DNA of 64,000 bases from assembly GCA_009664345.1 (NCBI GenBank), contig CP043547.1, forward strand, positions 868,001 to 932,000. Direction: 5' to 3'. The stretch's first letter is position 1. Each line of letters opens with the position of its first letter. Positions 21,697 to 57,089 of the stretch are shown here, piece after piece. The position numbers and the translations under genes were made by a program. The DNA is from Planctomycetales bacterium 10988. GTDB lineage: Bacteria; Planctomycetota; Planctomycetia; Pirellulales; Pb10988. Below the pieces are notes generated by a model, which was given only the letters and a program-made list of their open reading frames with translations, searched no databases and had not been told where the DNA came from.

Positions 21697-21716
21697 AAGG
21701 AATGGGTAAAGTAAAG

Positions 21717-23038: not shown

Positions 23039-23110
23039 GTAGACAACCTTCTACAAACCAAGCATCTTATCAAAGTTTTCCCACAATACAGACACCATCA
23101 ATCTACTCCT

Positions 23111-24981: not shown

Positions 24982-24987
24982 AACCCT

Positions 24988-26601: not shown

Positions 26602-27011
26602 AATGGAAGGCCTTTTGTCGCGAGGGTGATGGAGTTCTCTGCATTCCCCATTCCCAGACTCAAGTGGAAGGAAAATCTCGCGCGTAGCATACCGCTTTTC
26701 CCGCGAACTGCCTAGAGACTTCTCCTCAGAACGCCTCTGACCACGCGATTTTCTTCGGTAGAACTTTTTTACCTTTTTCGAATTCAGCTAAAGAGTGAAG
26801 GTCCATTCCGAGTTGGAATGAGCTCGATAATCGCACTACGAACGCGGATCTCTTGAATCGGTATCTCTCCAAACCAGCCAAGAACGGCTCTCTCTTTCTT
26901 TCTGCATTCCGCGATATTCGCTAAAAGCCGCCGGTCGATTTGGGATAATACCTGAAATAACTTGCTTTTTCTCTTGATATCCCTATCTCTTCGATAGAGA
27001 ATTATCTCAGT
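26602..27011. other. Intergenic, no gene seen
   Basis: 410 bases, AT-rich in the last 100. No convincing frame or RNA is visible. It contains the promoter side of the leftward FAD oxidoreductase. Confidence 0.35.
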
Positions 27012-27281
27012 TTATTTGTTAATGAGATTCGCCGATCTTATTAACCGAAATAAGTCGTCGTTGAGTAGGTTAAAAGCTTTCCTTTGATTCAGTCTACTTC
27101 TGTCTAAAGTAGAACATTTTGATTCCATTAGATCCGCACCCAATGAGAGAAGAGCTAGAGCGACAGCTTGATACCCATACTGCTCTTGCAAGTCAAGGAC
27201 GGCCAGTGGTAACGACTTTGGTTGGCCCTGCAACTTTATCCGAACGTGTATTAAAGAAGTGGTGTAATCAACGTCAACAAC
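27012..27281 (-). pseudogene. 3' fragment of an unknown gene
   Basis: The reverse strand reads without stops from about 27281 (IIEVVDVDYTTSLIHVRIKL) to a stop at 27012, ending RLIRSANLINK. An internal TTG at 27233 could serve as start, but the open frame begins exactly where the GC-rich repeat-protein remnant ends. That points to a gene truncated at a junction. No family recognised. Confidence 0.35.
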
Positions 27282-27283
27282 TT

Positions 27284-28238
27284 CTATGATGTGACGGCTA
27301 CGGTCCCGGTGACGTATCCGGCATCGTAGAAGAACGAGGTCTCATCGACGCTGTCCCATCCATAATACAGCCGGACGTTGTTGGATTGGAAGATGGCATC
27401 GACGAAGCCTCCGGCGAGTTTTCCACTTCCTGCCTGACGTCAATCGCTTCTCCGGCGGCGTCGTAGCTACGAATGGAGAGCAGGCCAAAATAATCCCCGC
27501 CCCCGACGCTCGCCTCATGGTAGGCAAAGGCCCCATCCGTTAAACCGACCGACGAGACGAACCGATCCAGCCCCGGCAGATTGACCTGGAGTTCATCGGA
27601 CTGATCGTACAGTTCATCGAAGACATACTGCCCAAAGAAAAGTTCCTCCGGCGAGTCCCCAGCGGCGAAGAGCGACTCAACAAAGGCCAGCTCTTCCTGC
27701 AGCGGGAGAACGTCCGACAGGTAGGCGTAGTCGGCGTTGGTCTCGGTGGTGGCCTTGGTAATCTCGGCGGCCAGCATGGCGTTGAACCAATCCTGATCCG
27801 CGGCGATCAGGTCGGTCTGGAAATTCTCCCACGCCTCGGAGACATCCGCATCGCGGTCCGCGGCGGCCTGCGCGAGGGCGGCATCGCGGTCCAACCAAGG
27901 CGGAAGCCGCTCCAGGTTATCATTCGGGTCGGCATCGGCGGCCTGATGTTCGTCGGTGACCGCGTCTGCCAAAGCAGTGGCATAGCTCTGGCTCAACAAG
28001 GCGGTGAGGGCCGCTTCCCCAGCGACGAGTGCCTGATCCAAGGCGACTTGGTGAGGCTTGAGGGTCTCCAAGTAAGTTTGATAGGCCTCCAGGGTCGCCA
28101 AGTCGATCGCTTGGTTGCTATCCAGCAGCGTCTGCAAGGCGGTGGGATCGGGGCTAGCCGGATCGGCGGCGGGGTTCTGCATCTCCTTCCAGGCCGCGAA
28201 GGTGTTTTGATAGAGCGCCGAGTAATCGGAAGGAGTTT
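27284..28238 (-). pseudogene. GC-rich Ala/Asp-rich fragment of a large protein (possibly RHS-type), frameshifted
   Basis: The frame is already open at 28238 (SDYSALYQNTFAAWKEM) with no start, so the 5' part is missing. Residues up to about 170 are Ala/Asp/Gln-rich and probably helical (WENFQTDLIAADQDWFNAML). After VRQEVEN, at about 27415, the frame shifts and the true C-terminus continues as LAGGFVDAIFQSNNVRLYY...DAGYVTGTVAVTS to TAG 27284. Base composition is clearly more GC-rich than its neighbours. Comparable helical segments occur in giant planctomycete RHS/YD-repeat proteins, but this assignment is from memory and uncertain. Confidence 0.45.
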
Positions 28239-28244
28239 AATATG

Positions 28245-28697
28245 TTAAGGTTCGAACGGAGTGCTCTTAAGACTATACGTAATTCTTGATACTTTAAGAT
28301 CTCCTTCATCACTTAGTAACTCATACCATACAAGTTCTGGAAAAATGTAATTAGGAAGATAATCAGGAACGCATAAGTTGGGAAGATATTGCCGAAAAAG
28401 TATACTATCCTTAACGATTCTTCCATGATTAGGATTTAGAAAGGACAAGGCAGCTGCTAATTTATATGGAGCTTCTTCTGCAAGCTTTTCAACATTGAGA
28501 TTCAATTTTTCCAATGCAGTGATAAACTCACTCTGATCGGTGATATATATTGCTTGATCTTCCCTTTCAATCTGGATGTAATATTCTAGTTCCTCGTCGG
28601 GTAGATTGTCATATACGGGAGAACCTTCGATAAATTTTGTTTTCAGATTAATCTTACAACCCTTGAGTTCAATCATTTCGAATAAATTGTCTTCCAT
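28245..28697 (-). CDS. Hypothetical 150-residue acidic protein (possible immunity-type protein)
   Basis: A clear gene: AAGGGG lies 8-13 bases before ATG 28697, and it starts one base after the stop of an interrupted upstream frame. It is acidic (MEDNLFEMIELKGCKINL, LPDEELEYYIQIERED) and AT-rich, with no signal peptide or membrane segment. The tight coupling to an upstream reading frame ending DEELRLAINQVRGF, the small size and the acidity fit a cognate immunity protein of a polymorphic toxin. That function is inferred from context only. Confidence 0.5.
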   Translation of the reverse strand: MEDNLFEMIELKGCKINLKTKFIEGSPVYDNLPDEELEYYIQIEREDQAIYITDQSEFITALEKLNLNVEKLAEEAPYKLAAALSFLNPNHGRIVKDSILFRQYLPNLCVPDYLPNYIFPELVWYELLSDEGDLKVSRITYSLKSTPFEP

Positions 28698-28698
28698 T

Positions 28699-28759
28699 TT
28701 AGAATCCCCTTACCTGATTAATGGCTAATCTCAATTCCTCATCCGTAAGTTCACGTCTA
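28699..28759 (-). pseudogene. Last ~20 codons of a gene cut by IS copy B
   Basis: From the IS edge the reverse strand reads RRELTDEELRLAINQVRGF and stops at TAA 28699-28701, one base before the ATG of the 150-residue gene. It is likely the C-terminal tip of the partner, perhaps toxin, gene. Confidence 0.4.
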
Positions 28760-29669
28760 AGAGCGTGTTTGCGAATTGACATTTGACAAAAAAATCGGTA
28801 CGACCCCTTGTGAATTCACCACAAAACCATAACCAAGGAGCCGCACCGATGTCACGACCTCACGATTACACCGACCTCAGCGATCGTCAATGGCGTTTGA
28901 TTCGTCCCCTTTTGCCGCCACCAGCGAAGGTCGGAGCGAAGCGGCAGCTCGATTCCCTCGAAGTGGTCAACGCGATTTTCTACGTCCTGCGGTCGGGCTG
29001 TCCGTGGCGGTTGTTGCCGCATGATTTTCCCAACTGGAATTCGGTTTACCACCTGTTTTGGGCGTGGCGGAACCTCGGCATTTGGGAGAAAATTCACCGT
29101 AAACTTCGAGCGAAAATACGAAAAAAAAGAGGAGCGATCCGCGAAGCCCTCGGCGGCGATTCTCGACAGTCAATCGGTCAAAACCACCGAGGCGGGCGGG
29201 CCTCGTGGGTACGATGCCGACAAGAAAATCAACGGGAGAAAACGACATTTACTCGTCGATACGCTGGGTTTGGTGCTGGCGATCGTGGTGCATTCGGCGG
29301 GCCTTCAGGATCAGGAGGGAGCCCGCTTGGTGTTGCAAAAAGCGAAGCGAGACGTTCCTCGGCTTCGGGTGATTTTCGCGGACGGTGCGTACGCTCGCAG
29401 CGGGCTGCCGGCGTGGGTGAGAAATACCTTCCACTGGACGCTGGAAATCGTCAAACGTTTGTCAGGCCGTGTGGTTTTGAGGTGTTGCCGAAGCGGTGGA
29501 TCGTCGAGCGAACCTTCGGTTGGCTGGGTCGCAGCCGCCGGTTGAGCAAGGATGATGAACGGGAACCTTCCACCAGTGAAGCGATGATACAAATCAGCAT
29601 GATTCACTTATTGTTCAAACGTCTGTGTCCTTAAAAAAGGGAAACTTTGGGAATTCGCAAACACGCTCT
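28760..29669 (+). mobile_element. IS5-family element, copy B (910 bp)
   Basis: Same 18-bp termini as copy A and inverted relative to it. It differs from copy A only near the transposase start (about seven substitutions in the first 150 bases). Confidence 0.8.
28849..29634 (+). pseudogene. IS5-family transposase, same double frameshift as copy A
   Basis: It starts at ATG 28849. The A run is at 29121-29128. The DDE middle part lies in the +1 frame (29130 to about 29480) and the last 60 residues return to the first frame. Sharing both defects with copy A means the copies arose by segmental duplication or conversion, not by separate transposition of an active element. Confidence 0.7.
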
Positions 29670-29767
29670 GAAAACAAAATGGTCAACTTTTTTCAAATGA
29701 AGAAGGGGAGAGAGATGAAAACCTCCACTCCCCTTTAAAAAGCGTCCCACCATATTTCTAGTGCAAA

Positions 29768-30955
29768 TTACCCTACTTCACTCATTATCTTTCGGGCGGA
29801 ATTTAAATCGCGTTCCGCATAGACTTGGGTGACACTTAGTTCGGCATGTCCAAGAATCGTTTGGGCCGCCTCGATCCCGAATTGTCGCCGGAGGTCGGTC
29901 GCTCGGGTATGGCGAAGGCGATTGGGAGACCAGCGATCGATCTTTGCTTTATCACAGGCTCGATGAATCGCCCGGCGATAGCTATCGACTGTGTAACCAT
30001 CTCCTGGCTTTCGCTCAGGCTTCTGCTTGGAGCGATCGATCTGCGAAGGCTGGACTTTTGTTTTCCGTCGCTTGCGTAGTTCGATCATCCGTTGGGATTC
30101 CGCTTCCGCTGGCGAAAAACAGGGGGCTTCAGCGGGGCGGTTGTCAAGATAGGAAGTAAGGATGCCTTGGGCACAAGGTCCGAAGAAGATGACCCGCTCG
30201 CGGCCATGATGCTCGGTTTTGTGCGATTGCGGTCGATACTCCCAAACCTCTTGATCGCGATTCACATCGCAGGGGCGAAGGCTCACAATCTCGCCAGGAC
30301 GACACCCCGCCAGAACTTGAAGGCGGATCATATCACGAACTTGAGGAGAAGTGTGAGGAAGCGTGGCGTTGATTTCCTCGGTTTCGAGAGGGAGGACAGG
30401 GCTTGATTCCTTTGCCTCGCAACGTCCCTTCCTTAGCCCCGTGATGGCTTGTAGGCCTTGATAGACTTCGGGAGGGACGAGTTCATTTTCGACGCCCCAG
30501 CGAAAGCACCTTCGGATTCGTCCGACCTTTTTGTTGATCTCATTTCGGCACCAACCTTTTTGGACCATCGCTTCGCGTACGGCCTTGAGTCGAAGGGGGC
30601 CGAACTCACGAACCGCCGTCGAGCCATAATGTTCTCTGAGAATTTTGAGAGAGTCTCGGATCAGGTTCTGCTCACTGGTAGGTTGGCCCTGCTTGCGATA
30701 ATAGCCCTTGGCGAACTTCCAGTAGGAAAGAATCGGTTCATCGATCGTGAAGGGGGCTGCTTGCTTAGATTCCGCAGGCGTGGTCGGAATTTGCCCGGTA
30801 GAGAGCCATTCGGCCAGGAGCCGACGGTAGCGTTCTTGCGACTCAATCGAGCCATATTTCCCAAGATAAAAATCGCGATCTTGGATACGAACGCGGGCTT
30901 GGTTGCTAGGCTTGTGGTGAACGAGGGTGGGGATGGAAAAAGATTTCTGCGACAT
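29768..30955 (-). CDS. Tyrosine recombinase/integrase, inverted copy
   Basis: Identical over 395 residues to the integrase at 19501, with R219, R348, H349, H370 and Y379 all present. It points away from the truncated tRNA-Pro at 31076-31114, so gene and attachment core keep the same geometry as in copy A. Two identical active recombinases facing inverted identical cores could act on each other. Confidence 0.88.
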   Translation of the reverse strand: MSQKSFSIPTLVHHKPSNQARVRIQDRDFYLGKYGSIESQERYRRLLAEWLSTGQIPTTPAESKQAAPFTIDEPILSYWKFAKGYYRKQGQPTSEQNLIRDSLKILREHYGSTAVREFGPLRLKAVREAMVQKGWCRNEINKKVGRIRRCFRWGVENELVPPEVYQGLQAITGLRKGRCEAKESSPVLPLETEEINATLPHTSPQVRDMIRLQVLAGCRPGEIVSLRPCDVNRDQEVWEYRPQSHKTEHHGRERVIFFGPCAQGILTSYLDNRPAEAPCFSPAEAESQRMIELRKRRKTKVQPSQIDRSKQKPERKPGDGYTVDSYRRAIHRACDKAKIDRWSPNRLRHTRATDLRRQFGIEAAQTILGHAELSVTQVYAERDLNSARKIMSEVG

Positions 30956-30979
30956 AGTGCAAACCTTGTGCCAAAGTCC

Positions 30980-30997
30980 GAGGGTAGTACTACCCTC
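30980..30997. promoter_or_regulatory. Perfect 18-bp palindrome before inverted integrase
   Basis: Third copy of GAGGGTAGTACTACCCTC, at the same distance from the start codon. Confidence 0.5.
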
Positions 30998-31075
30998 CAA
31001 ATGCTTCGGTTTCGGGCTGCACTGCAGAAGAGCTGCAGGTATGTAAGTTGTTGTTCAGAATAGAGTTAGGAAAAG

Positions 31076-31114
31076 TCGGGGAGACAGGATTCGAACCTGC
31101 GACCTTCTGGTCCC
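31076..31114 (-). repeat. tRNA-Pro 3' half (attachment core copy)
   Basis: 39 bases equal to tRNA-Pro from the second anticodon base (GGGACCAGAAGG...) through the discriminator. The 5' half of the tRNA is absent, so no functional tRNA is made. The break inside the anticodon loop is a common crossover position for tRNA-targeting integrases. Confidence 0.85.
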
Positions 31115-31165
31115 GAACGCAGAACCAAAAATTAAATGTGTTGTTTATCAACGACTTACGTCAAG

Positions 31166-36171: not shown

Positions 36172-36308
36172 TCTCAAGCTCCAGAAATCCGAAGAGAACA
36201 AGACGGACTAACATTCTCAAACTTAGACACACGAGAAGCGACGTTGTGACAACTTTTGTCAAACAAATCGAAAAAAATCTCCTCGATAGGTCGGAGGTCG
36301 CCCTGACA

Positions 36309-36587
36309 GTCACTCAGGATTCGATACACCATTGGGTAACGCAATATTTGAATGGGAAGCGGACCAAAGTACAGGCCGGTGAGCTCTCCGCTGGACGGTA
36401 TGATCCGATCCGATGTCATCTCCAGTCTTTTGAGAAGTGGTTCGGAAAGGGTGCATCAATCAAGGGGATCTCTGGGAAGGTGCTCAGTGATTTCCATCGG
36501 GGACTTCTCGACCAGATCAATAGCCAAAGGAGCTCGCAAGACTATGCCAAGGATCGCATGAACACGTTGAAAAACTTTGTCCACTGG
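36309..36587 (+). pseudogene. Fragment of the second-type integrase (core-binding domain)
   Basis: Residues DSIHHWVTQYLNGKRTKVQA through NTLKNFVHWL match residues 201-290 of the integrase at 31250 with about 7 changes. The match starts and stops abruptly, with no start codon of its own and no catalytic domain. Confidence 0.85.
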
Positions 36588-36926
36588 CTGGAGAACAATC
36601 TTGCCCTGAATGTCGCCAATGGAGATTTGTTTCGTTGGGATTGGATGTGGGAGCAAATCGCTGACTTCTTTGGACTCGAAGTCGCCGAGTATCCTGGCCA
36701 AGAAACACCACTTGTAGAGCAGATGCGTGATGCTGGTCCCATTTGGGACGAGATCGTGCAGAAGCATGATCTTCGAAAATTCACTTCAGACGAATTGGCT
36801 CCTTGGTGGCACACAGACGCAGACTTAACGCGGACCTTTGAATCCTTTGCCGATCTGTCAAGAAGTCGTGAACTTGGCTTTCATGCATTTATAAAAGAGC
36901 AAGTCCTCATTCTTCAACGTTTTTGA
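36588..36926 (+). pseudogene. C-terminal fragment of an SDR-type NAD(P) oxidoreductase, fused in frame
   Basis: Immediately after the integrase fragment the same frame continues LNVANGDLFRWDWMWEQIAD...FFGLEVAEYPGQETPL and ELGFHAFIKEQ. This is the C-terminal half of the PRISE-like (progesterone 5-beta-reductase-like) SDR family. The NAD-binding N-terminus is absent. The resulting 226-codon chimera has no plausible function. Confidence 0.75.
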
Positions 36927-39011: not shown

Positions 39012-39590
39012 ATCATTTGACGCGTCGAGATTTCGTAAAAACTGCTTCAGTCGCAGCTGCATCCATGGCACTCGACGGGAGTGTCGTTGAAGTTTTCGCA
39101 GGAGAAGAATATGGCACCAGAAATAATATTGCATAGTGGACGGATCACGACACAGGATGCGAAACGTCCTGAAGTCTCGGCGTTGGCAGTAACTCATGGT
39201 CGGGTTCAAGCTATCGGCTCTGACGACGAAATACTTGCACTTGCCTCGGAGAAGACACGCAAGATTGATCTTGAAAATCGACGCGTGATCCCCGGGCTCA
39301 ATGATTCGCACCTGCACGTGATTCGTGCGGGATTGTTTTCAAATTTGGAGCTTCGTTGGGATGGAACGCCGACACTCTCCCAGGCATTGAAACAGCTCAA
39401 AGAGCAAGCCCGTTGGTGGAACGGTCATGCACGATCCAGAAGACTGCATGTTGCGTGGGGAAGCTTTGCGACTCTATACGCATGGCAGCCCCTCGTCTTC
39501 GGTGGAAGAAAGAAGGCGGGATTGACAAATGGCGTTCGATCGAACGTGCTCCCTTTTCCACTCATGCGAGGATCGCCGGGTTTCCGTAGT
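39008..39590 (+). pseudogene. YtcJ-like amidohydrolase with Tat signal, internally deleted and frameshifted
   Basis: GTG 39008 starts a twin-arginine leader (NHLTRRDFVKTASVAAASMAL). A frameshift at about 39110 moves to the amidohydrolase N-terminus (APEIILHSGRITTQDAKRPE...RVIPGLNDSHLHVIRAGLFS, with the metal-binding HxH as SHLHV). At about 39420 about 400 codons are missing, and the text resumes with the C-terminal box GEALRLYTHGSPSSSVEE. The metal-binding core is lost, so it is dead. Originally an exported metal-dependent hydrolase, third in the HxlR-linked operon. Confidence 0.7.
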
Positions 39591-40116
39591 TGAACACCAC
39601 CCCTCGGCAACCGATTTCCTTGAATACCAGAGTTTCGAAGAGGTTGTTCATCCCAGGTTTCGCCAGATCCCGATAGATGCTCGCATAGGGGCCCCAGCTG
39701 TCTGAGAAACAAAATTAAACGAACAGACGATCATTGGCCAGTGCGGACACCGCGAGACTCAGACCGATTAAAGTCAAACAAGTGGTTGATTTGTCATTGA
39801 TCTATCTTTGAGTTTGGAGACTTCCAGGTGAATCCTCGGATATCGGGATTGCTGATTTGATCGAAGACTTTGCCGCTCTTAGTGACCCTGCTCCCCGAAT
39901 CGAGTCCAGCCTGTGGTAGAGTAAATCTAGGTTTTGGACATATTTTAAAGAAGGCAGCCGATGCCCAGCAAGCAACATTCACCCGAGCAGATTATTACGA
40001 AGCTCCGCGAAGCGGAGGTCCATCTGGCCCTGGGCGGTTCGTCCTGGGCGCAACTTGGCCGTCGCCCCTGAGCGCGGGTCCCTCCAACAGACTTCCGCCA
40101 GCCGCTCGCAATGAAT
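39591..40116. other. Mosaic of gene fragments
   Basis: A reverse-strand frame from about 39710 to 39585 reads GPYASIYRDLAKPGMNNLFE...NYGNPAILA, a C-terminal fragment I cannot assign. The stretch 39720-39950 has no frame of note. An IS3 left end follows. Confidence 0.4.
39961..40028 (+). pseudogene. IS3-family orfA N-terminal stub
   Basis: MPSKQHSPEQIITKLREAEV is the start of the IS3 helix-turn-helix protein. Reading is lost after about 23 residues. Confidence 0.8.
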
Positions 40117-45804: not shown

Positions 45805-47631
45805 ATGTCGGCAGATTCAATCGTTTACTGTCTAGAGAACCTCACTGATTACGATCAGTTCGAGCGTCTTTGCTCCGATGTCATGAATCAGTCGGGCTAC
45901 CGAGACATCCAGCCACTGGGCGGGTCAAATGACCGAGGCCGCGACGCACTTCACGTTTCGCGGGCTGATCCTGATGAAATCACGATCTTTGCGTACTCCG
46001 TGCGTGGGGATTGGCGACAGAAACTTCTGAACGAAGACTGTAAACGGATTTACGATGAAAAACACGAGCTGAGTCGGCTTGTCTTTGTGTCCACGGCGAG
46101 CATTCCGTCGACTCAGAAGGATAAGGTAAAGCAAGAAATCGCCAAGGAGTTTGGCTGGGCTCTCGAACTCTACGATCTGGAACGTCTGCGAATCCGGCTA
46201 GCGGGAGACCTTAGGCATCTCATCGCTCAGCACCCTTCGATCTTCTGCCCACCGTTTTTTCCAACACGTGGCGGTCTGTCCGTTGCCGAGTCCCGTGATA
46301 CGTTGGTGATCGATCATCACCCGGATGATCACGCCCTCGCAACATGGTTAGCAAGACGGCTGCAACTCGCGGGGCACCGCGTGTGGTGCTACGGGACGGC
46401 TCCATTGGCTGGTGAAAACCCCGACGATTCGATACGTGCTTTGATTCGGCATCGCGCTTGTCGGTTTCTTCCAATTCTGTCAGCCAGTTCGATTGCCGAT
46501 TCGGACTTCCTGGCTCGATGTAGCATCGCCAGCGAGACCGACGAGTTGTTGTTGCCATGCTACGCGACCGAGACCGACGTGAAGCAGCTGCCGACCAAAT
46601 TCACCAAACTTGCATTTGCAAGATTTTCGGAGAGTTGGGCTGACGGACTTTCGGCCCTTCTTGAATGCTTACGGGCGACGTCGGCGGTTACTTCATTCAG
46701 TGAGGAACAGGGACGGGCGATTGCTCTTCGCTCGTATGTACCGGAACCCGTCGTCAAGCAAGTGCCGGAAACGGTCTATGCCAACACGTTTGCTGTGACT
46801 GTTCCGAGCAGTATTCAGGTCTGCGAGCTTGAAATGGCACTCGATGAAGAGCAGCAGGAGGAACTGCGAAAAAAATGGGCCTTTGTTGTCGCTAACGCGA
46901 CCAAATATCTTGCATTCGAGCCACCACCGGCGTCCGTGCGGCTTGTGAAGAGCAAACGCCTTGCCGGTTATTCGTGGCAGCACTATTCATTTAAGCATGA
47001 TCAGCTTTCGACTAATGTTGTAAAAGAACTGGTCCGCCGCAGTCTGGATGTTGCCTGCGTCAATGCTGGACTGCTTTGGTGCGAAGACCGTCGAAAATTC
47101 TATTTTCCGCAAGGCACAAATCCGCTCAACAACCTGTCCTACGTCCATGTGGACGGTCGCAAGACACGTGTCTCCGCGACAGGTCAGAAGAGCTACGGAA
47201 GTGGCGAGAACGCGAAGCCTTTTCGTTATCAACTCTGCCCGACGTTCCGAGTAGGACAAGACGAGGCTGGAGAGTGGTGGGTAACGTTGCGGATCTACGT
47301 CCGTATTACCGATCTGGACGGCAAGCCACATGAGAAGAAGGGAATAACACGACGCAGAAAGAAAGTTGCGAGTAACTGGTGGAACAAGGAATGGTTTGCT
47401 CGAACACTCGCGATCATGCAAGCACTTTCCAATGGCCAATCGGAGATTGTCATCGGCTCTGGGACGGAAGAGCTTTCCGTCAGCGTGGATCCGCTTCAAT
47501 GGGATTGTCCTGTTGCCATCGATTATGCTGCGGTCGACAGGATTGGTGACTTCCAAGAAGAGATCGCGGCACTTCGTTTCAGCGACGAGGGAGATGACGC
47601 TGGCGATGAAGGAGAGGAGAACAATGACTGA
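45805..47631 (+). CDS. Mrr-like nuclease + TIR + APAZ protein (partner of short Argonaute)
   Basis: 608 residues. Residues 10-140 form an Mrr-type PD-(D/E)XK fold: YDQFERLCSDVMNQSGY, GGSNDRGRDA (D43 or D47) and FAYSVRGDWRQK (to K73). Residues 165-290 form a TIR domain (TLVIDHHPDDHALATWLARR, GENPDDSIRALIRHRACRFL, LSASSIADSDF). Residues about 320-600 match the APAZ position and end in an acidic tail. APAZ proteins pair with short Argonautes and become active on guide-directed recognition of invading DNA, by NAD depletion or nucleic-acid degradation. It overlaps the Argonaute gene by 8 bases. The usual TIR catalytic Glu is not evident (R238/C239 where it is expected), so the Mrr domain may be the main effector. 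Confidence 0.82.
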   Translation: MSADSIVYCLENLTDYDQFERLCSDVMNQSGYRDIQPLGGSNDRGRDALHVSRADPDEITIFAYSVRGDWRQKLLNEDCKRIYDEKHELSRLVFVSTASIPSTQKDKVKQEIAKEFGWALELYDLERLRIRLAGDLRHLIAQHPSIFCPPFFPTRGGLSVAESRDTLVIDHHPDDHALATWLARRLQLAGHRVWCYGTAPLAGENPDDSIRALIRHRACRFLPILSASSIADSDFLARCSIASETDELLLPCYATETDVKQLPTKFTKLAFARFSESWADGLSALLECLRATSAVTSFSEEQGRAIALRSYVPEPVVKQVPETVYANTFAVTVPSSIQVCELEMALDEEQQEELRKKWAFVVANATKYLAFEPPPASVRLVKSKRLAGYSWQHYSFKHDQLSTNVVKELVRRSLDVACVNAGLLWCEDRRKFYFPQGTNPLNNLSYVHVDGRKTRVSATGQKSYGSGENAKPFRYQLCPTFRVGQDEAGEWWVTLRIYVRITDLDGKPHEKKGITRRRKKVASNWWNKEWFARTLAIMQALSNGQSEIVIGSGTEELSVSVDPLQWDCPVAIDYAAVDRIGDFQEEIAALRFSDEGDDAGDEGEENND

Positions 47632-49171
47632 CACATTCCATCTACTTTCGGAGCCGAATCTGCAATTCGGTTCTGAGCAACAAGCATCGGACCCGCATGA
47701 CGGACTTGCATTGTTCGGTCCTTCGGAGGCTCGTGCGAATATCCCGGACCACGTTGTGATCGGTACACCGACCGGACTGAAACTCTGGGATGAGTGGGTA
47801 CGCTCGCTGAATGCGCCTTCGGCTTGCGAAGATCCAACTCGACAGCGGCCATGGCCACCCTACCCCGGATTCGATGTGGCTTTCGGCAGCAGGTGGCCTG
47901 CGCCGCTCAAACGGTACACCGTGGATCCTGAAACTCTGGATGAGTTCGCACGAAAGGCGGATCGATACGAACGAGCCTATTCAGTTGCCAACTTGTATCT
48001 CGACCCGATCCAGACACAAGTCCCGAGACTTGATGCGAAACCGGCCATCGCCGTGTGCGTTGTACCGGACAACGTACATAAGAACTGTCGCACAAAGTCG
48101 TATGTTGCGGACACGAGCGATGAACTCAAGACTTCGTCAGAAAGGAGCCACCTAAAATCCGCTTTGAAAGACCGGCAGTCAGGCCAAAGCCGATTCGATT
48201 TCGGAGAGGAACCCCAGGATTTGGAGCAGTACGGGCTATCACCGGACTTTCGTAGACAACTCAAGGCGAGGGTCATGCAATATGACATTCCCGTTCAGAT
48301 CGTCCGGGAATCGACTCTTGACGTGACGGATCAAGTACGTCGCGGCCTCAAAGGTGTAAACCCTTTGTCAGACAGACTTTGGAACATCGGCACAGCCCTG
48401 TTCTACAAATGCGGGCGGAAACCATGGAAAACCCCTTGGGCACGGGATGGAGTCTGCTACGTGGGTCTGGCGTATCGCCTGAGCGAACGAAGCAAGCGAA
48501 CGGCGTGTTGCGCCGCGCAGATGTTTCTGGATAGCGGTGATGGTGTGGTCTTCGTCGGAGAATTCGGCCCATGGTACTCTGAAGAGCGGAAGGAATTTCA
48601 CCTGACGCGTGATGCGGCCAGAGATCTGCTCACTGGAACGATCGAAACATACATGGCCCAAGAGGGGCGCGAATTAAAAGAGATCTTTCTTCACGCAAGG
48701 TCTGGTCTGAACGGTGAGGAATTTGAAGGATTCTCAGACGCTTGTCCCGATGGTGTCAAACTTGTCGGCACACGCGTCCGCAAAGATCGCTTTGGTCCAC
48801 GTCTATTCCGTCACGATGACCACGCCGATGTCACGCGCCGGGGAATGCACCCAATTCTGCGGGGTACCTTTTGGCAGCGTACGCAACGTCACGGATTGCT
48901 ATTTACGAGCGGATTCAAGCCTCGGATCGCGACCTACGACGGATGGGAGATACCAGTCCCGCTGTCCATCACCATTCAACACGGTGAAGCCGACCTGCTT
49001 CAAGTCGCGGAGGATATACTCGGTCTAACCAAGTTAAACTACAACGCCTGCCAATTGGGCGAAAGTCAACCAATTACAGTGAAGTATTCTGACCGGATTG
49101 GTGAGGTATTGTTGGCAAATCCCGAATTGCCGCGTGAGCAATGGCGAACGAACTTCAAATTCTACATCTGA
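47624..49171 (+). CDS. Short prokaryotic Argonaute (MID-PIWI, catalytically dead)
   Basis: The start is ATG 47624 inside the partner's stop, with GGAGAGGAG upstream; 515 residues. The N-terminal DPHDGLALFGPSEA (23-36) and the ending TVKYSDRIGEVLLAN...RTNFKFYI are typical of short pAgos. The MID domain lies at about 140-260, followed by RLWNIGTALFYKCGRKPW (251-268). The PIWI domain begins VCYVGLAYRLSE: the first catalytic Asp of DEDX is replaced, so it cannot slice. Short pAgos bind a guide RNA and recognise target DNA, then switch on the APAZ partner. No PAZ domain. With the Mrr-TIR-APAZ gene it forms a complete two-gene defence system of the SPARTA-like group. Confidence 0.88.
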   Translation: MTDTFHLLSEPNLQFGSEQQASDPHDGLALFGPSEARANIPDHVVIGTPTGLKLWDEWVRSLNAPSACEDPTRQRPWPPYPGFDVAFGSRWPAPLKRYTVDPETLDEFARKADRYERAYSVANLYLDPIQTQVPRLDAKPAIAVCVVPDNVHKNCRTKSYVADTSDELKTSSERSHLKSALKDRQSGQSRFDFGEEPQDLEQYGLSPDFRRQLKARVMQYDIPVQIVRESTLDVTDQVRRGLKGVNPLSDRLWNIGTALFYKCGRKPWKTPWARDGVCYVGLAYRLSERSKRTACCAAQMFLDSGDGVVFVGEFGPWYSEERKEFHLTRDAARDLLTGTIETYMAQEGRELKEIFLHARSGLNGEEFEGFSDACPDGVKLVGTRVRKDRFGPRLFRHDDHADVTRRGMHPILRGTFWQRTQRHGLLFTSGFKPRIATYDGWEIPVPLSITIQHGEADLLQVAEDILGLTKLNYNACQLGESQPITVKYSDRIGEVLLANPELPREQWRTNFKFYI

Positions 49172-49560: not shown

Positions 49561-51483
49561 ATGTTGCGGTTGAATCGGTCTGTCATCATCGTTTGCTTGG
49601 TGGTATTGCAATCGTCCCTGGCCTTGGGACAGCAGCTGAACAAACCGCGTCCGACGCGGGCCAACGTTCCTTACGGCGATCACGAGCGGCAAGTGCTCGA
49701 TTTCTGGCAGGCCGAATCAGCCGAACCAACCCCGTTTGTCTTATTCATTCATGGCGGAGGGTTCGCTGCGGGAAGCAAGGAAAGTCTCAAGGCATCGACT
49801 TTGAAGGACCTGCTGGACGCCGGAATCTCAGTCGCCGCTGTCAACTACCGTTATTACCAACAATCGCCGCTTCCAGCTGCTTTGCAAGATTGCCGCCGGG
49901 CACTGCAGTTCGTGCGGTCAAAGGCCGACGGTTGGAACCTTGACAAGACGCATGCCGGTGCCACGGGTGGATCGGCGGGGGCGGTTGCAAGCATGTATTT
50001 GGCGTTTCACGACGAGATGGCCGACCCAACCAGCAGTGACCCCATCGCCCGGGAGTCGACACGGCTTACTTGTGTGGCCACCACCGCCGGGCAGACGACG
50101 CTGGATACGCATTGGTGGGCAACCAACGTACCGGGTTGGCCCAAGGACGAGGGCATCAAGCAAGACACTCATGCTTACCGCCGATGGGGCATCAGCGAAG
50201 CGGACTTCACGGCAGTTGTCAACGATTCGTCGGCGCTGTCACTGATCTCGAAGGACGATCCGCCAATCTGGATGAGCTATTGGATGCGACCGGGTGACAG
50301 TATGCCAAAGGATCTAAAGCGGGCGACGAGTTGGCGTATTCACCACGTTTCGTTCGGTGTGGCGTTGAAGGAAAAGATGGATTCACTTGGCATCGAGTCG
50401 CATCTCGTCCATCCCCGCGCCAGCCGCGCCTATGACGGCCTGATCGACTTTCTTATCGCAAAGTTAAAACCCACTGGCTTTGCCGTCCACGCACCTTATC
50501 CGCCAAGCCCCGTGATCGCATCGGTCGATTTTCGCTTTGCAACGGAGTGTGAGTTTGGCCGGGGAAGTGATCAATGGCCGATGACGTGGGGAGCAGACGG
50601 CCATCTCTACGCGGCCTGGGGAGACGGTTGGGGCTGGAGGGGCGACAAGTCGGGACGAAAATACAGCATTGGCGTAACTCGTATCGCGGCCACGCCACCG
50701 GAGCTCCAAGGTACCGATGTCTGGGGCGATGGACCTGGACACGGTTTTGCCAAACCCGAAGCACTCGTTGCCCTTGATGACACATTGCATATGTTTTGGA
50801 CGCGGGGCGACAGCATCAACGACCTTGATGACACAGCCACCGCCGAATCACGCGACGGAGGCCACAGCTGGACCTACGGAAACGACAAGGCTTTCCCGCA
50901 AGCCCCAGCGGGTTTTCGAGTGCGGGGCATCTGCCAATTCGGACCTGGCTATCAAGATTCGCTTGACCGCTTCGTCTATGTCTATTTTGGATTCAACCGT
51001 CAGAGCGATTTATTTCTCGGACGTGTGCCCAGCGAACACCTATTCTCTTCAGAACAATACGAGTGGTTTACGGGATTGGCCGAGGATAACGTTCGGGCAA
51101 CATGGTCGAAGTCCATCAAGGATCGACAGCCCGTATTTCATGATCCCAACGGCTACATTTGGCACATTGGCGTGTCTTATAATTCTGGCCTGAAGCGATT
51201 CCTGTTGACGAAGCCTCATTACTGCCCCGGTGACGACCGCAAGACGCCGTTGGTGCGCGATTCGGGTGTTGCCAGTTTCGGCTTGTTCGATGCTCCAACT
51301 CCCTGGGGACCTTGGACGACGGTCCACTACCAAGACAACTTCAAAGACGGCCTCGTCAAGTTCAGCTATTTCATTCCCACAAAATTGATCAGCCAAGATG
51401 GTCGAGAGTTCTGGCTAGCATGGTCCGGCTGGCCGGAATACGACAGTGTCCGTTTCGTGCAGGGAAGACTCTCGCTTCGATAA
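49561..51483 (+). CDS. Secreted alpha/beta-hydrolase esterase fused to a DUF4185-like sialidase-type domain
   Basis: 640 residues with a signal peptide (SVIIVCLVVLQSSLALG). Residues 35-305 are a BD-FAE-like esterase: oxyanion HGGGFAAGSKE, nucleophile Ser in GATGGSAGAVASM, and a His candidate in IESHLVHP. Residues 315-640 form a five-bladed-propeller-like DUF4185 domain (MTWGADGHLYAAWGDGWGW, FVYVYFGFNRQSDLFLGRVP, VSYNSGLKRFLLTKPH, SYFIPTKLISQDGREFWLAW). This pairing suggests deacylation and binding or cleavage of acylated polysaccharide. Preceded by a weak ribosome site; monocistronic. Confidence 0.8.
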   Translation: MLRLNRSVIIVCLVVLQSSLALGQQLNKPRPTRANVPYGDHERQVLDFWQAESAEPTPFVLFIHGGGFAAGSKESLKASTLKDLLDAGISVAAVNYRYYQQSPLPAALQDCRRALQFVRSKADGWNLDKTHAGATGGSAGAVASMYLAFHDEMADPTSSDPIARESTRLTCVATTAGQTTLDTHWWATNVPGWPKDEGIKQDTHAYRRWGISEADFTAVVNDSSALSLISKDDPPIWMSYWMRPGDSMPKDLKRATSWRIHHVSFGVALKEKMDSLGIESHLVHPRASRAYDGLIDFLIAKLKPTGFAVHAPYPPSPVIASVDFRFATECEFGRGSDQWPMTWGADGHLYAAWGDGWGWRGDKSGRKYSIGVTRIAATPPELQGTDVWGDGPGHGFAKPEALVALDDTLHMFWTRGDSINDLDDTATAESRDGGHSWTYGNDKAFPQAPAGFRVRGICQFGPGYQDSLDRFVYVYFGFNRQSDLFLGRVPSEHLFSSEQYEWFTGLAEDNVRATWSKSIKDRQPVFHDPNGYIWHIGVSYNSGLKRFLLTKPHYCPGDDRKTPLVRDSGVASFGLFDAPTPWGPWTTVHYQDNFKDGLVKFSYFIPTKLISQDGREFWLAWSGWPEYDSVRFVQGRLSLR

Positions 51484-52499: not shown

Positions 52500-53312
52500 A
52501 TGGCTACAGAAGCCGTTGAAAGAATCAAGTATCTACTAAACACACGTTGGAATGGCAATCAATCTGCCATGGCCAAAGACACTGGGTGCGGTCAATCTAC
52601 CCTATCTTTGGTCGTTCGAGAGAAAGCAAAGCCAGGGAAAAATTTTCTACAAAAGATAGCGAAACATCCTGATATCAACTCCAATTGGCTTTTTCATGAT
52701 GAAGGTGAGCCATTCAAAACCGATACTCAGAATCCTCAAGAAGACCCCTCTCTGCCTATTTCTACAACGCTCTTATCTGACTGGAAAGGGAGAAATAAAC
52801 AACAGAAGTTCCTCGATCAACGGCAGGTTGTTCCGAGATGCTATGACAAGGAGCAGGCTTATTTCTACTTAGTTTCTATGGGTGACCCGATCACATGGGA
52901 GAAGACGTCTGCTGTCCAACCTGGAGACTTACTGCTCATCGACATGGATAAAGAATCTATGCCACCAGTAAGAAGATTTAGCTCTGATCTTGTTGTTGCA
53001 CAGCTCCCTGAACAGGGCGGATATCCGATTCTCGGCTTGCTGAGTTTTGAGAACTGCCCAGAGGAGGGAGAAGGTTTAGTCTTTAAGCCCTTTATTCTTA
53101 AGGAGATACCCGATTTGTCCAATTCTAAAAAAAAATCAAAGGGTCGAGATCGGCTAGAAGCCAGAAGGTGTCTGGTTTATGAGCAAGGAGAAGTTAAAGA
53201 GAGAACACTCAGCACAAATCAGATCACTGCCCTTTCAGACGAATACATTGCGTATGAGTATGTAATAGGGATTTGCAAACTGCTGATTCGAAGGCATTTC
53301 CATCCCATCTGA
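52500..53312 (+). CDS. Phage-type repressor (XRE helix-turn-helix + S24-like C-terminal domain)
   Basis: 270 residues with GGAG upstream of ATG 52500. N-terminal HTH: ERIKYLLNTRWNGNQSAMAK, TGCGQSTLSLVVREKAKPGK, then INSNWLFHDEGEPF, the spacing seen in CI-like repressors of integrated elements. The C-terminal half (about 100-235) resembles the beta-rich S24/LexA dimerisation fold (VQPGDLLLIDMDKESMPPVR), but the Ser-Lys dyad cannot be placed with confidence. It leads the primase-helicase module and probably keeps it silent. Confidence 0.7.
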   Translation: MATEAVERIKYLLNTRWNGNQSAMAKDTGCGQSTLSLVVREKAKPGKNFLQKIAKHPDINSNWLFHDEGEPFKTDTQNPQEDPSLPISTTLLSDWKGRNKQQKFLDQRQVVPRCYDKEQAYFYLVSMGDPITWEKTSAVQPGDLLLIDMDKESMPPVRRFSSDLVVAQLPEQGGYPILGLLSFENCPEEGEGLVFKPFILKEIPDLSNSKKKSKGRDRLEARRCLVYEQGEVKERTLSTNQITALSDEYIAYEYVIGICKLLIRRHFHPI

Positions 53313-53397
53313 GTGGAAACTAGGGTAAACCCCCTATTATATCACATAAGAGAATCATGAAGGGAGGTGAAAAGATTCAACAAAAACCAGGTTAGAA

Positions 53398-53425
53398 AAC
53401 CGCCGTGGTTGGTGCCACGACGGTT
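53398..53425. terminator. Hairpin between repressor and primase genes
   Basis: AACCGCCGTGG and CCACGACGGTT form an 11-bp stem with one mismatch around TTGGTG. It could attenuate read-through. Two very short frames overlap it (for example VKRFNKNQVRKPPWLVPRRF, GTG start after GGAG) but are too short to call. Confidence 0.4.
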
Positions 53426-53468
53426 CGGTATCTGATTCTTATCCCCCCATCTGGCCGGCAAGCATTTG

Positions 53469-54617
53469 ATGGGGAAAACCTCTAATGAAAGAGAGAATCT
53501 AATATGTAGTATACACATTTTGCGCTCGGGGTCCATACCGAATTTCAGCCCAGAGTCCGCTTGGAAAACTCGGTCGCCTAATTTGGCACAATGGACAAAA
53601 GATTTCCTCGTCAATCGCAGAAATGCGTGGGGTCAATACCTACCTAAGGCTGCTCATGGGAAGCCGAAAGTAGTTACGATCCGAGAAAAAGATCTTACGG
53701 ATGAAGTCCTCATGAGACATTTTATCGGGGATTGTCGAGGCGATCTGATTGGTCTTCATGTTGCGTCTGAGGAAACGACCTGTCGGTGGATTGTCGTCGA
53801 TATTGACCTCCATGGGGAGCCCGATGAGCAGCTGAAGAATACGAACTTTCAAGCCGCGTTGGGTTTCTATGATCGTCTTAGGAAAAGAGGGTTCAACGCT
53901 CTTCTTCTCGATAGCAACGGCCGTGGGGGCTATCACATCTGGACATTCTTTGACGCTCCGATCCCGCTTACGAAGGCGTATCAATTCTCGCAATGGGTGG
54001 TATCTGATTGGGAGAAATTGGGGCTGTCTGAAAAGCCCGAGACATTTCCTAAAAAGCCCTACCTTCCCAAAAAAAATGGTCTCGGGGGACTGGTTCGCCT
54101 ACCGGGGCGGCACCATACCCATGAGTTCTATTCCCGAATTTGGGATGGCAGCTGCTGGCAGGAAGGGGACAGGGCAATCGATCTGCTTCTTGCGAGCACT
54201 GGCGACAAACCCTCCCTGATCCCAGATGAAGTCTCAGCGATTCCCCTAGATCCGACAACTAACGTTTTTCAAAAAGCGGACATCCTCGACCTTCTCTCCA
54301 AAGAGCAACGTGAAGGACCGATCGGCTTAGTTTTGTCTCGTCTGGACTCTGTCAAGCCAGGCGGGGGTCAATGGACCGCATGTTGCCCCGCCCATCATGA
54401 CAGGGATCCAAGCCTATCGATTGGTGAGGGTGAGGATGGAAAAGCGCTTCTCTGGTGCCATGCCTTGTGCGATATCGAGGATATCGTGGCGGAAATGGAC
54501 TTGAAAATGTCGGATCTTTTTCCAAAGCAAAAGGGGCCTCAGGTACGGTCTGTTCCTCGACGCCCCTATCCCACCCACCGCTACTACCCCCGCCGGAGAA
54601 AAGAAAATGAAGAATAA
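53469..54617 (+). CDS. Archaeo-eukaryotic primase with C-terminal zinc finger
   Basis: 382 residues from ATG 53469. The AEP catalytic core reads CRWIVVDIDLHG (DxD metal site, about residue 113), then LLLDSNGRGGYHIWTFFDAP (the sxH box) and GGLVRLPGRHHTHEFYSRIW. The C-terminal part is a CHC2-like zinc ribbon (ACCPAHHDRDPSLSIGEGED, ALLWCHALCDIEDIV). This primase type starts DNA synthesis in plasmids, phage satellites and TOTE-like systems. It overlaps the next gene by 11 bases and is the first enzyme of a primase-TOPRIM-helicase set. Confidence 0.8.
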   Translation: MGKTSNERENLICSIHILRSGSIPNFSPESAWKTRSPNLAQWTKDFLVNRRNAWGQYLPKAAHGKPKVVTIREKDLTDEVLMRHFIGDCRGDLIGLHVASEETTCRWIVVDIDLHGEPDEQLKNTNFQAALGFYDRLRKRGFNALLLDSNGRGGYHIWTFFDAPIPLTKAYQFSQWVVSDWEKLGLSEKPETFPKKPYLPKKNGLGGLVRLPGRHHTHEFYSRIWDGSCWQEGDRAIDLLLASTGDKPSLIPDEVSAIPLDPTTNVFQKADILDLLSKEQREGPIGLVLSRLDSVKPGGGQWTACCPAHHDRDPSLSIGEGEDGKALLWCHALCDIEDIVAEMDLKMSDLFPKQKGPQVRSVPRRPYPTHRYYPRRRKENEE

Positions 54618-55193
54618 GTGGAAAGAGCGACAACAACGCTACTCTGAGGACATAACTGCGTCACAGCAGAGCGATTTAGAGAAACGGTTAGGCGTTCCCG
54701 GATGCGCATTGCAAAAACTATCGGTGGGATGGTCTAAAGAAGATCAGGCTTACACCTTCCCAGAATACAACGCTGAGGAAGAGATCATCGGAATCCTCCG
54801 TCGTTCAGTGAACAATAAGAAATGGGCCATGAAAGGGAGTAAGCGCGGCCTTTATATTCCAAAGGATTGGGCATCACGACCGGGCTCTTTGTACCTCCCT
54901 GAAGGTGTATCCGACACCGCTGCAGTCTGGCCATGGGGTTGAATGCAGTCGGACGACCTAACGCCGAGGGGGGAAGAATGCATTTGGCAGCCCTGCTCAA
55001 AAACTTTTCTGAGCGGATCATCGTCGTTGGCGAAAACGATCATAAGCCTCCTAACTCGTGGCCCGGTAAAGAGGGGGCGATCGAACTCGCCCAGCAGCTG
55101 GCGAACGATCTAGGCAGAAAAATCGGCTGGGTTCTTCCACCAGAGGGTTGTAAGGACGTCCGAGCATATTTCATCGAAAGGAGTGCCGTATGA
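54607..55193 (+). pseudogene. TOPRIM-like replication protein, frameshifted
   Basis: Frame 1 (ATG 54607 to TGA 54940) reads LEKRLGVPGCALQKLSVGWS and LYLPEGVSDTAAVW. Frame 2 (to TGA 55191) continues GLNAVGRPNAEGG, ERIIVVGENDHKPPNSWPGK and WVLPPEGCKDVRAYFIE. Together they form one TOPRIM domain (Glu in PEGVSD, the ENDH acidic pair). One base is missing at TGGCC (about 54929), which would be TGGGCC. It is either a recent mutation or a sequencing error, because everything else is intact and overlaps with its neighbours are preserved. Confidence 0.75.
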
Positions 55194-56746
55194 CTACTTT
55201 TCAAGAGATTGGTGAAGAGTGGAATGCTCACTGTGAGCATTCTCTCGTCCTAGTGAAGCAAGAAGCGGAAAAAGAACAAAAAGAGGAGGAACGAGAACCC
55301 GTCTTCACGAATTTTGACGAGATCGGTGAGAATCGACACAAAGTACCGCTACTGTTCGATGTCATTCTAACGTTTCTGCTTACGCTTACCTTGAATTGGC
55401 CCAAGGGATATCAAGGTAAACTCTTTGTCCGAGGGTCTGCGGGAAAGCCAAGGTATCTCGATTCTCCCATCAAACTCTTTGCTTGGTTCGATGAACAATT
55501 TCATGTTGACTGGGCAAAAGGGCAAGGTTTTATCCCGGAATCACGTTTCTACGAAAGCCTCTTAAACCATGTAGAAGAATACGAAGCAATAGAACGCTTT
55601 CCTCATTTTCCTCCCTTGGCGGGGGTCTACTACATGACGGACGAACTTCCTCAAAGTGATGGAAGTGCCCTGGAAAAACTCATCGACTTCTTCTCTCCAA
55701 ACACCCCGGAAGATCGTCAGCTCATCAAGGCATTGATCCTTACCCTCCTTTGGGGTGGGCCCTCGGGAAGTCGTCCAGCCTTTCTGATTACCGGTCCGGA
55801 CCGAGACCCTACGCCAGAGAGACAGGGACGGGGACTTGGAAAGACAACCCTGGCTACACTGCTCAGCGAATTGGTCGGAGGACCGATGAGTTTCTCTTCC
55901 CATGAAGAAGTAGGACGTATCAAGAAGCGTCTTCTCTCCCCGGAAGCCGCGAAATATCGGGTGGCGCTACTCGATAATCTCAAAACTCGACGCCTTAGCT
56001 GGGCAGAATTGGAAGACTTGATTACTGCGGCAAAGATCAGTGGACATCGATTGTATCAAGGGGAAGGGCAACGGCCCAATACTCTGGTTTGGGTGTTGAC
56101 GTTGAATGGTGCCTCCTTATCGAAAGATATGGCAGAGCGGTGTATCGTGATCAAATTGGCACGACCTCAGCATGATCCTGACTGGGAGAGGAAAGTGAGG
56201 AATTATCTTCACGATCACCGAGGGGATATTATCTCCGACATTCGGCAGTTGTTGGAACAACCATCCGTCGAGAAGAAAGGGGAGAAAGGATTCTCGCGAT
56301 GGGCGGAGTGGGAAGCTCAGGTTCTTTGTAAGGTCGAGGACTTCGAGGCTTGTCAAACCATCATTCGGGATCGTCAGCAAGACGTAGACGACGATTCTCA
56401 GGAAGCGAACTTGATTCGAGACCAACTTCAACAAAAGCTACGACAGGGCGACTATGATCCACTTACCTGTTGTGTCTCGCTCGATTGCAGAACCTTGAGC
56501 CGTTGGCTATCGGATTGGCTAAATAAACCTTTGGCCCCCACGAAGGTCACTCCCTATCTGACGAACCTTCACATCCAGGAGATCGATCGTAAAAGGTGTA
56601 GCGCCGGTGCTCAATGGATATGGCGGGGCGTAGCATCACCACTGAACCAGAAGCCAGTGCCATATTATAGACAGGAGGAACCCGACGGTATAGTGACGGC
56701 ACTATGTTTCCATAAATCATTACTAGATTACAATTTATGGAAGTAG
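55190..56746 (+). CDS. D5-like/SF3-type replicative helicase
   Basis: 518 residues; ATGA overlap with the previous gene. Residues 1-45 are charged (EAEKEQKEEEREP). Residues about 160-340 form a P-loop ATPase: PAFLITGPDRDP...GRGLGKTTLATLL (Walker A), YRVALLDNLKTRRLSWAELE (Walker B), VWVLTLNGASLSKDMAERCI (sensor 1 Asn and Arg finger). The C-terminal 150 residues may be DNA-binding winged helix. Such helicases work with AEP primases in integrative plasmids and phage satellites. Confidence 0.75.
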   Translation: MTTFQEIGEEWNAHCEHSLVLVKQEAEKEQKEEEREPVFTNFDEIGENRHKVPLLFDVILTFLLTLTLNWPKGYQGKLFVRGSAGKPRYLDSPIKLFAWFDEQFHVDWAKGQGFIPESRFYESLLNHVEEYEAIERFPHFPPLAGVYYMTDELPQSDGSALEKLIDFFSPNTPEDRQLIKALILTLLWGGPSGSRPAFLITGPDRDPTPERQGRGLGKTTLATLLSELVGGPMSFSSHEEVGRIKKRLLSPEAAKYRVALLDNLKTRRLSWAELEDLITAAKISGHRLYQGEGQRPNTLVWVLTLNGASLSKDMAERCIVIKLARPQHDPDWERKVRNYLHDHRGDIISDIRQLLEQPSVEKKGEKGFSRWAEWEAQVLCKVEDFEACQTIIRDRQQDVDDDSQEANLIRDQLQQKLRQGDYDPLTCCVSLDCRTLSRWLSDWLNKPLAPTKVTPYLTNLHIQEIDRKRCSAGAQWIWRGVASPLNQKPVPYYRQEEPDGIVTALCFHKSLLDYNLWK

Positions 56747-56747
56747 T

Positions 56748-56864
56748 GTAGGTAGTGTAAGTAAATTCAGAAAGTTTTTTGGTGAGAATAAAACGATCAA
56801 AGGTCTTGTTTTCCATCTTCTAGAACTGAATCTTCAACAATAGAAAACAGCTTACACTACCTAC
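56748..56864. repeat. 14-bp perfect inverted repeat after the helicase gene
   Basis: GTAGGTAGTGTAAG (56748-56761) and CTTACACTACCTAC (56851-56864) with 89 bases between. GTAGTGTAG is itself a near-repeat. The spacing is too long for a terminator; it could be an origin or attachment site of the element. Confidence 0.45.
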
Positions 56865-57089
56865 ATCCTGCCATCTTCAATGATGAGATAAGTGACAGGA
56901 TGTGCCAGAGAGTTTTGAATAAGAGTTGTCGGCAAACGCGAGGATACCTTCATAAAAAGCTATAAAGCTGCCGCCAAGTCCATTCTTGCATCGATTCAAG
57001 AGCCGCGAATGGGGTAGTCAACGAAGATTGACCACTTCACCTTCTTCAATCTTCGATTGCGTCACCGCTTAATAACCATCGGCCTTCCT

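Follow-up and report, generated by a model that had tools for sequence, protein, structure and literature searches.

What is the replication module that lies at positions 52,500 to 56,746 of a 64,000-nucleotide stretch from Planctomycetales bacterium 10988, and to what kind of element does it belong? The stretch, hereafter the window (G000:C1:868001-932000), comes from a single-contig genome of 6.65 Mb that is the sole member of its family within the genome collection we compared. A preliminary description, made from the sequence alone, had recognised a self-contained initiation set of repressor, archaeo-eukaryotic primase (AEP), TOPRIM and D5-like helicase genes resembling that of a phage satellite or an integrative plasmid. 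Our analysis indicates that this module is probably a mobile element's pri-rep-ori replicon, of the satellite kind known from phage-inducible chromosomal islands (PICIs) and Staphylococcus aureus pathogenicity islands (SaPIs), and left without an integrase. The copy in the window appears orphaned and is possibly disabled.

The most informative feature of the module was missed by the preliminary description, which ended at the helicase stop codon. Directly abutting that codon is the left arm of an inverted repeat, and this dyad of iterons after the helicase gene points to a PICI/SaPI-type replicon (Table 1). With a score of 15, it is the only repeat scoring at least 15 in the 64 kb at spacers of 30-140 nt, one other scoring 14, and 0 of 1500 dinucleotide shuffles matched its score.

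Table 1 Features of the replication module and of the paired repeat 3' of the helicase gene, in window positions
Feature	Position	Strand	Details
CI/XRE-type repressor gene	52500..53312	+	270 aa; PHROG and Pfam profiles
AEP primase (TOTE/CAPP-like) fused to CHC2 zinc domain	53466..54617	+	383 aa; start codon uncertain
TOPRIM protein, N-terminal part to frame break	54607..54942	+	35% identity to the unbroken CHC2-TOPRIM of L061
TOPRIM protein, C-terminal part, other frame	54930..55193	+	ATG-started open reading frame 54933-55193
D5/SF3-type AAA+ initiator helicase	55190..56746	+	518 aa; C-terminal winged-helix-like part
Left iterons, two tandem 9-bp units GTAGTGTAG-GTAGTGTAA	56743..56760	+	overlap helicase stop codon
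Left arm, perfect 15-bp inverted repeat	56747..56761	.	repeat search
Spacer, putative melting region	56762..56850	.	89 bp, 70% AT (window 48%)
Right arm of inverted repeat (right iterons)	56851..56865	.	repeat search

The same plan, spelled in unrelated letters, recurs after the helicase genes of relatives, for example GGGACACTTGGGACACTT in locus L062, CGCTACTAACGCTACTAACGC in L077 and CGATGACGGCGATGACG in L155. We counted dyads between -25 and +240 of the stop codon, at spacers of 30-140, with the genes of the same loci as controls and L111 excluded from the dyad work as too short. Dyads scoring at least 12 were found in 18 of 38 helicase regions from Planctomycetota vs 24 of 489 control genes (Fisher 4e-12), and dyads scoring at least 15 in 14 of 38 vs 10 of 489, the score thresholds and spacer limits having been chosen after the arms of most loci had been viewed. 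The score of 12 was also reached in seven of 16 loci kept apart from the set where the idea arose (p 1.3e-5), loci that nevertheless stood in the later arm listing preceding the thresholds. Several of the best-scoring controls (L040, L044, L045 and L069) are themselves located behind more distant primase/helicase genes, so the control rate, if biased at all, is an overestimate. The spacer was richer in AT than its own locus in 17 of 18 dyads (median +0.14), and the comparable stretch after control genes gave +0.01. As separate observations, L040, L044, L045, L069 and L153 carry paired repeats of a similar kind after distant primase/helicase genes or adjoining open reading frames (ORFs), and L074, L075, L106 and L108 have an inner inverted motif, TATTGT/ACAATA, within the iteron arms.

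The letters of the iterons change together with one part of the helicase. Among 19 loci with a dyad score of at least 11 (the partial ORF of L037 excluded), the more alike two helicases were in their C-terminal domain, the more alike were their iterons (Mantel rho 0.59, p 0.0005). Controlling for the AAA core left the C-terminus with a partial coefficient of 0.48 (p 0.0005), whereas controlling for the C-terminus left the core at -0.02; pruning to 13 loci of at most 45% identity gave a rho of 0.68 and a partial value of 0.57. The predicted helicase model, with a mean predicted local distance difference test score (pLDDT) of 73, contains a helix-helix-strand-strand unit at residues 433-479. Foldseek matched it to the NrS-1 C-terminal region (CTR), poxvirus D5/E5 and the SaPI5 primase-helicase, and the top row of VIA-align was SaPI5 PriRep1 with double-stranded DNA (7pds_B, Z 13.5, root-mean-square deviation (rmsd) 10.4, 373 residues), 1.9 above the next rows, which included another SaPI5 entry. 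The Walker A motif, GRGLGKTT, fits GxxxxGK[ST], and the only Pfam match was DUF5906 at 0.042. The model thus suggests, through remote matches, a helicase of the D5/SF3 initiator type having a PriRep1-like fold with a C-terminal domain.

These data also bear on whether the dyad might be a transcription terminator, a repressor operator or a recombination site instead of an origin. Hairpin terminators do follow such genes, as does a stem with an 8-nt loop in genome G438; we nevertheless consider these roles improbable, because an ordinary terminator would not have a spacer as long as 89 nt, a search for terminator-like sites at the window dyad found none, and the arms change from element to element along with the helicase C-terminal domain, as a target of the helicase should. 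The place 3' of rep is, moreover, the PICI origin place in the published account, as far as its accessible part goes (PMC6092414).

Several observations weigh against reading the module as a PICI-type replicon. No dyad was found at score 12 in 20 of the 38 helicase regions, and near relatives fall below this threshold: L072 (6), L061 (8), L063 (7), L071 (9) and G438 (9). In such dyad-less close relatives the origin may lie elsewhere, have decayed or take another form. The best tandem lag, which is 9 in 15 of 18 dyads, 8 in two and 12 in one (9 in the window), is a figure that stands without a control set. The left arm begins within the helicase gene in five of the 19 correlated loci, so the correlation could be slightly inflated. 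Finally, the structural matches have template-modelling (TM) scores of 0.30-0.38 and rmsd values of 7-12, which makes them remote matches of a multi-domain protein, and the structure model of the AEP protein (pLDDT 46.8) is too poor for use.

The protein-coding part of the module largely agrees with the preliminary description. According to the ORF list, all genes lie on the plus strand at the coordinates first given. They had been called four tightly overlapping genes; all four are in place and the last three do overlap (AEP/TOPRIM by 11 nt, TOPRIM/helicase by 4 nt), whereas the repressor gene stands apart, 153 nt upstream. The GC content is 0.44-0.50 in the module vs 0.516 in the window. PHROG, Pfam and structural matches bore out the identities proposed for the repressor, the AEP-zinc protein and the D5-like helicase. 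The repressor matches phrog_4, 'transcriptional repressor' (6e-11 over residues 7-168), and phrog_8 (3e-9), with Pfam HTH_3 below the Pfam cut-off (E 0.0018); it was matched in 20 of 397 genomes of the class, the source genome counted, and one of four other loci of its family that were inspected (L182) carries an integrase and an HTH_17-like ORF. In the AEP-CHC2 protein, residues 45-217 match Pfam AEP-TOTE (2.2e-16), and the zinc part matches phrog_6088, 'DNA primase', at 289-361 (5e-12) and, below threshold, the CHC2 zinc finger (0.0058). The protein further matches PDB entries 7nqf/7nqd (9e-6) and PADLOC PrimPol (2e-12) and carries the motifs DID, GGYHIW, RLPGRHH and CPAH...CHALC; every element of what we take to be the AEP motif set (DxD, an SxH-type motif and a third motif) is present. 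The preliminary description had staked itself on structural matches, and on the AEP and helicase assignments it came through that test with Pfam AEP-TOTE and the D5-type Foldseek matches.

Another role for the AEP is conceivable, since its Pfam domain name derives from TOTE conflict systems, PADLOC PrimPol profiles match it and a short-Argonaute system lies 3 kb upstream: it might serve defence or conflict, as a TOTE-like or CRISPR-associated Prim-Pol, and not replication. We regard this as very improbable, given that G438 encodes a single 586-aa protein comprising AEP, CHC2 and TOPRIM immediately ahead of the helicase, and that the AEP-CHC2, TOPRIM and helicase genes are consecutive beside an integrase in L071.

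The TOPRIM gene is broken, as the preliminary description had reported. Both halves align, in order and on either side of the break, to one unbroken L061 protein, the C-terminal part with 38% identity to L061 and 46% to L071. TOPRIM is in a single unbroken frame in all seven readable relatives (L061, L071, L150, L154, L155, L156 and L157); in L076 its halves share one frame, but the helicase is split over three. Neither half alone reaches any Pfam family, and the L061 CHC2-TOPRIM protein itself reaches Toprim_3 at E 0.0015 only. Of the CHC2 zinc site and the TOPRIM acidic motifs that mark a DnaG-type primase core, the C/H pattern and EGVSD can be read in the module; the second acidic motif is END where DxD is expected, and Pfam gave no match above the cut-off. 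Programmed frameshifting was rejected by eye only, inspection of 54920-54940 having revealed no slippery heptamer.

It had been suggested from this break that the element may have just died. That is possible, as TOPRIM halves 35-46% identical to relatives fit a recent break, and they also fit a base error. The prospect that the break arose in assembly and that the replicon is fully intact comes close to an even chance: both halves are conserved, and the remaining module genes and the dyad are intact. However, long core genes of the window, such as those for ribonucleotide reductase and Asn-tRNA synthetase, have no breaks, and the source genome has further broken mobile genes, for example the integrase at G000:5525624, so decay is as plausible as assembly error. 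With TOPRIM out of frame, the window copy may be unable to prime normally.

Relatives place the module in a mobile setting. Helicase matches occur in 24 of 392 phylum genomes (E 1e-3) and 51 of 397 class genomes (profile, 1e-10), and AEP-CHC2 matches in 53 of 392 and 103 of 397, respectively, mostly through one of the two domains; scanning GTDB contigs yielded six loci, L073 being the same contig as L061. The view of the module as a mobile element's self-contained initiation set is supported, and relatives lie beside tyrosine integrases and HTH_17 (excisionase-like) genes, the latter in L061 and L155. The preliminary description had proposed looking in planctomycete genomes for the same gene order with its integrase and attachment (att) sites. 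The primase-helicase order was indeed found beside an integrase in five loci (L061, L071, L154, L155 and L156), whereas att repeats were located in one of six relatives tried, L064, itself dyad-less. L071 (metagenome-assembled genome KLAP214) carries an integrase C-terminus, an ORF, an excisionase-like match, AEP-CHC2, a one-frame TOPRIM and the helicase; identity to the window is 37% for AEP-CHC2 and 49% for the helicase, which has one in-frame stop. L061 (G227) comprises tRNA-Arg, an integrase with an ORF that overlaps it by 4 nt, and then HTH_17, CHC2-TOPRIM (without AEP) and helicase genes, while L155 and L156 have an integrase, CHC2-TOPRIM and the helicase. The fused single ORF of G438 (L150) has no integrase nearby, as in the window, and L162 (G604) has AEP and CHC2 in one ORF with no such helicase within its stretch. 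The integrases of L061, L064, L155, L156 and L159 adjoin tRNA genes, and L064 is an 11.3-kb element between 44-bp repeats of a tRNA-Lys end; among 9 of its 12 ORFs of at least 80 aa, PHROG profiles recognised integrase, primase and a DNA invertase. Another integrase N-terminus follows right after the second tRNA-Lys repeat (L064 14853-15293), which suggests a tandem insertion.

The same helicase type is also found near tail tape-measure genes (L062, L065), a large terminase gene (L078) and a small terminase gene (L160). Owing to these neighbours, the module might be the relic of a tailed prophage's replication region and not of a satellite or integrative plasmid, the more so as the dyad is present in L062 and L078 and the repressor resembles phage CI. 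We judge a prophage relic unlikely, although a serious contender: no structural or packaging gene was recognised by eye (this was not a PHROG scan) in the ORFs of window 38-64 kb, L071, with AEP and integrase, and the integrase-bearing L061 show no such genes among the ORFs listed, and the att-bounded L064 shows, in 9 of its 12 ORFs of that size, no clear structural PHROG match and just weak local ones to packaging profiles. In sequence collections, the helicase had no plasmid match and one weak match among phages, and AEP-CHC2 matched 26 phage records, by the zinc part only in the matches shown. Scans of IMG/VR returned nothing for the AEP or query A1, and two contigs for query A2. The only other helicase of the broad type in the source genome is at G000:394860 (E 1e-8). 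It lies in a region (L070 4544-12546; G000:C1 ~390.5-398.5 kb) with an integrase, an HTH-type small ORF, the remote helicase and a family A DNA polymerase split between two frames, and we found no direct link between that element and the window module.

Some relatives carry an integrase, but the window copy itself may not be a whole satellite or integrative plasmid. There is no integrase within 21 kb of the module (the nearest is at 29768-31000), excisionase queries (xis/AlpA) had no match in the window, the tRNA-Pro end was not found repeated near the module and no gene was recognised as a helper or transfer gene; the searches revealed no attachment site, other att sites being possible. The copy has thus either lost int and xis or never had them. 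In agreement with the preliminary description, no dedicated polymerase is near the module. The flanks have a chromosomal look, with an esterase-like gene (49561-51483) on the left and Ser/Thr kinase and sigma factor genes on the right.

Other mobile and chromosomal features of the window were noted in their own right. The integrases at 1-2, 19-21 and 30-31 kb were considered as parts of the same element and dropped, with no att copy and no other element part nearby. The region 19306-31123 has a tRNA-Pro gene and an integrase of the same family as the mobile elements' integrases; a 2.4-kb inverted copy (19334-21699 vs 31123-28757, 99.6%) surrounds a 7-kb segment with Asn-tRNA synthetase, and a third integrase copy lies at 867-2183 (96%). 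A tyrosine-recombinase-like gene at 31250-32782 matches Phage_integrase below the cut-off (E 0.0005), and a fragment at 36246-36926 shares 274 bp with it at 96%. The short prokaryotic Argonaute (pAgo) system mentioned above (45805-49171) encodes a REase-TIR-PNTD protein (PADLOC 2e-118) and, after it, a class I pAgo (5e-167), the true start of whose ORF, from 47366, is probably later. An amidohydrolase gene at 39081-39593 covers only residues 3-66 of a 472-position profile and is seemingly truncated or frame-broken. Finally, a cobalamin riboswitch (8235-8452, 105 bits) precedes the ribonucleotide reductase gene (8708-11536), which we take to be class II-like.

What the analysis shows is which genes these are, that the dyad exists and recurs behind related helicase genes, and that iteron sequence and helicase C-terminal domain are correlated. 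Because the module matches the PICI replicon both in its parts and in their order, we propose that it works alike, and origin function, binding, the order of events and the use of a foreign polymerase would follow by analogy. The repressor would silence the module until relieved. The helicase would then use its C-terminal domain to bind the paired 9-bp iterons lying immediately 3' of the helicase gene, melt the AT-rich spacer between them and load there. Primers would be laid by the AEP-CHC2 protein, the TOPRIM protein or both, and a host or helper polymerase would extend them.

Known systems share parts of this arrangement. In the accessible parts of the sources, the D5-type helicase Cch2 of pattern-2 staphylococcal cassette chromosome mec elements likewise binds repeats downstream of its own gene via a C-terminal domain, whereas the primase is an A-family polymerase pair and three direct iterons are bound without a paired dyad (PMC7581432). 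Phage primases of the phiC31/Phipami28 type provide the best phage match of the CHC2 domain (Phipami28, 52% over 72 aa), but for the zinc domain only, and no record of the phage collection searched covers 80% of AEP-CHC2. Bacterial AEPs on integrated elements, often at tRNA genes, include cryptic elements without phage or conjugation genes; these are PrimPol-PV1 families, and planctomycetes and an AEP-CHC2-TOPRIM fusion are not mentioned in the part of that paper available (Kazlauskas 2018, PMC5862659). AEP and CHC2-TOPRIM are two unrelated primase superfamilies, and their joining (one ORF in G438, two in the window and L071) bears on how replicons combine them. The phage-inducible chromosomal minimalist islands (PICMIs) of Vibrionaceae have int, iolg overlapping int by 4 nt, alpA and prim, and L061 resembles them in its integrase, 4-nt-overlapping gene, HTH_17 gene and primase; unlike the relatives inspected, which sit at tRNA genes, PICMIs integrate at fis, and their primase is DUF3987/DUF5906, according to the excerpts at hand (PMC10803314). 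The window module is without int and alpA, so the colocalisation of int, alpA and prim is absent.

The closest counterpart is the PICI/SaPI replicon (SaPI5 PriRep1, SaPIbov1 Rep), in which, as far as the portions available describe it, an AT-rich region flanked on each side by an iteron set comes directly after the repressor, primase and helicase-initiator genes, with pri, rep and then ori 3' of rep; deletion of the origin region reduced plasmid maintenance in E. coli, and SaPI Rep recognises its origin through the C-terminal domain (PMC6092414, PMC7581432). The window shares the pri/rep/ori layout and the helicase fold, with PriRep1 as best row and the C-terminal domain implicated in iteron choice, and a CI-like repressor, putatively, fills the place of the master repressor (rpr/Stl). 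It differs in its AEP, CHC2 and TOPRIM primase, in having two iterons per side at 9-bp steps, in its planctomycete host, in that an adjoining integrase is lacking and searches for attachment sites of its own and a xis/AlpA gene gave no match, and in that related replicons also serve tailed phages. As an integrase (within 21 kb), an excisionase match and an att repeat are all missing, we do not file the module as a PICI or PICMI, nor do we claim PICI membership, because this replicon is also used by tailed phages and a repeat is not detectable in several of the closest sequence relatives. Our searches found no literature on phage satellites or PICIs in planctomycetes, a weak absence given mostly open-access coverage. 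The layout after helicase genes across Planctomycetota, tailed-phage neighbours included, makes PICI ancestry testable in a new phylum, and iterons varying with the helicase C-terminal domain offer ready-made pairs for a recognition code. We tentatively suggest, at somewhat less than even odds, that Planctomycetota have their own lineage of satellite-like integrative elements with a PICI-type replicon, fast-changing iterons and, in some, AEP and CHC2-TOPRIM in one protein, of which the window holds a stranded copy. If so, the origin layout, which the available part of the 2018 paper calls peculiar to PICI satellites (PMC6092414), would instead be that of an ancient replicon common to satellites and tailed phages.

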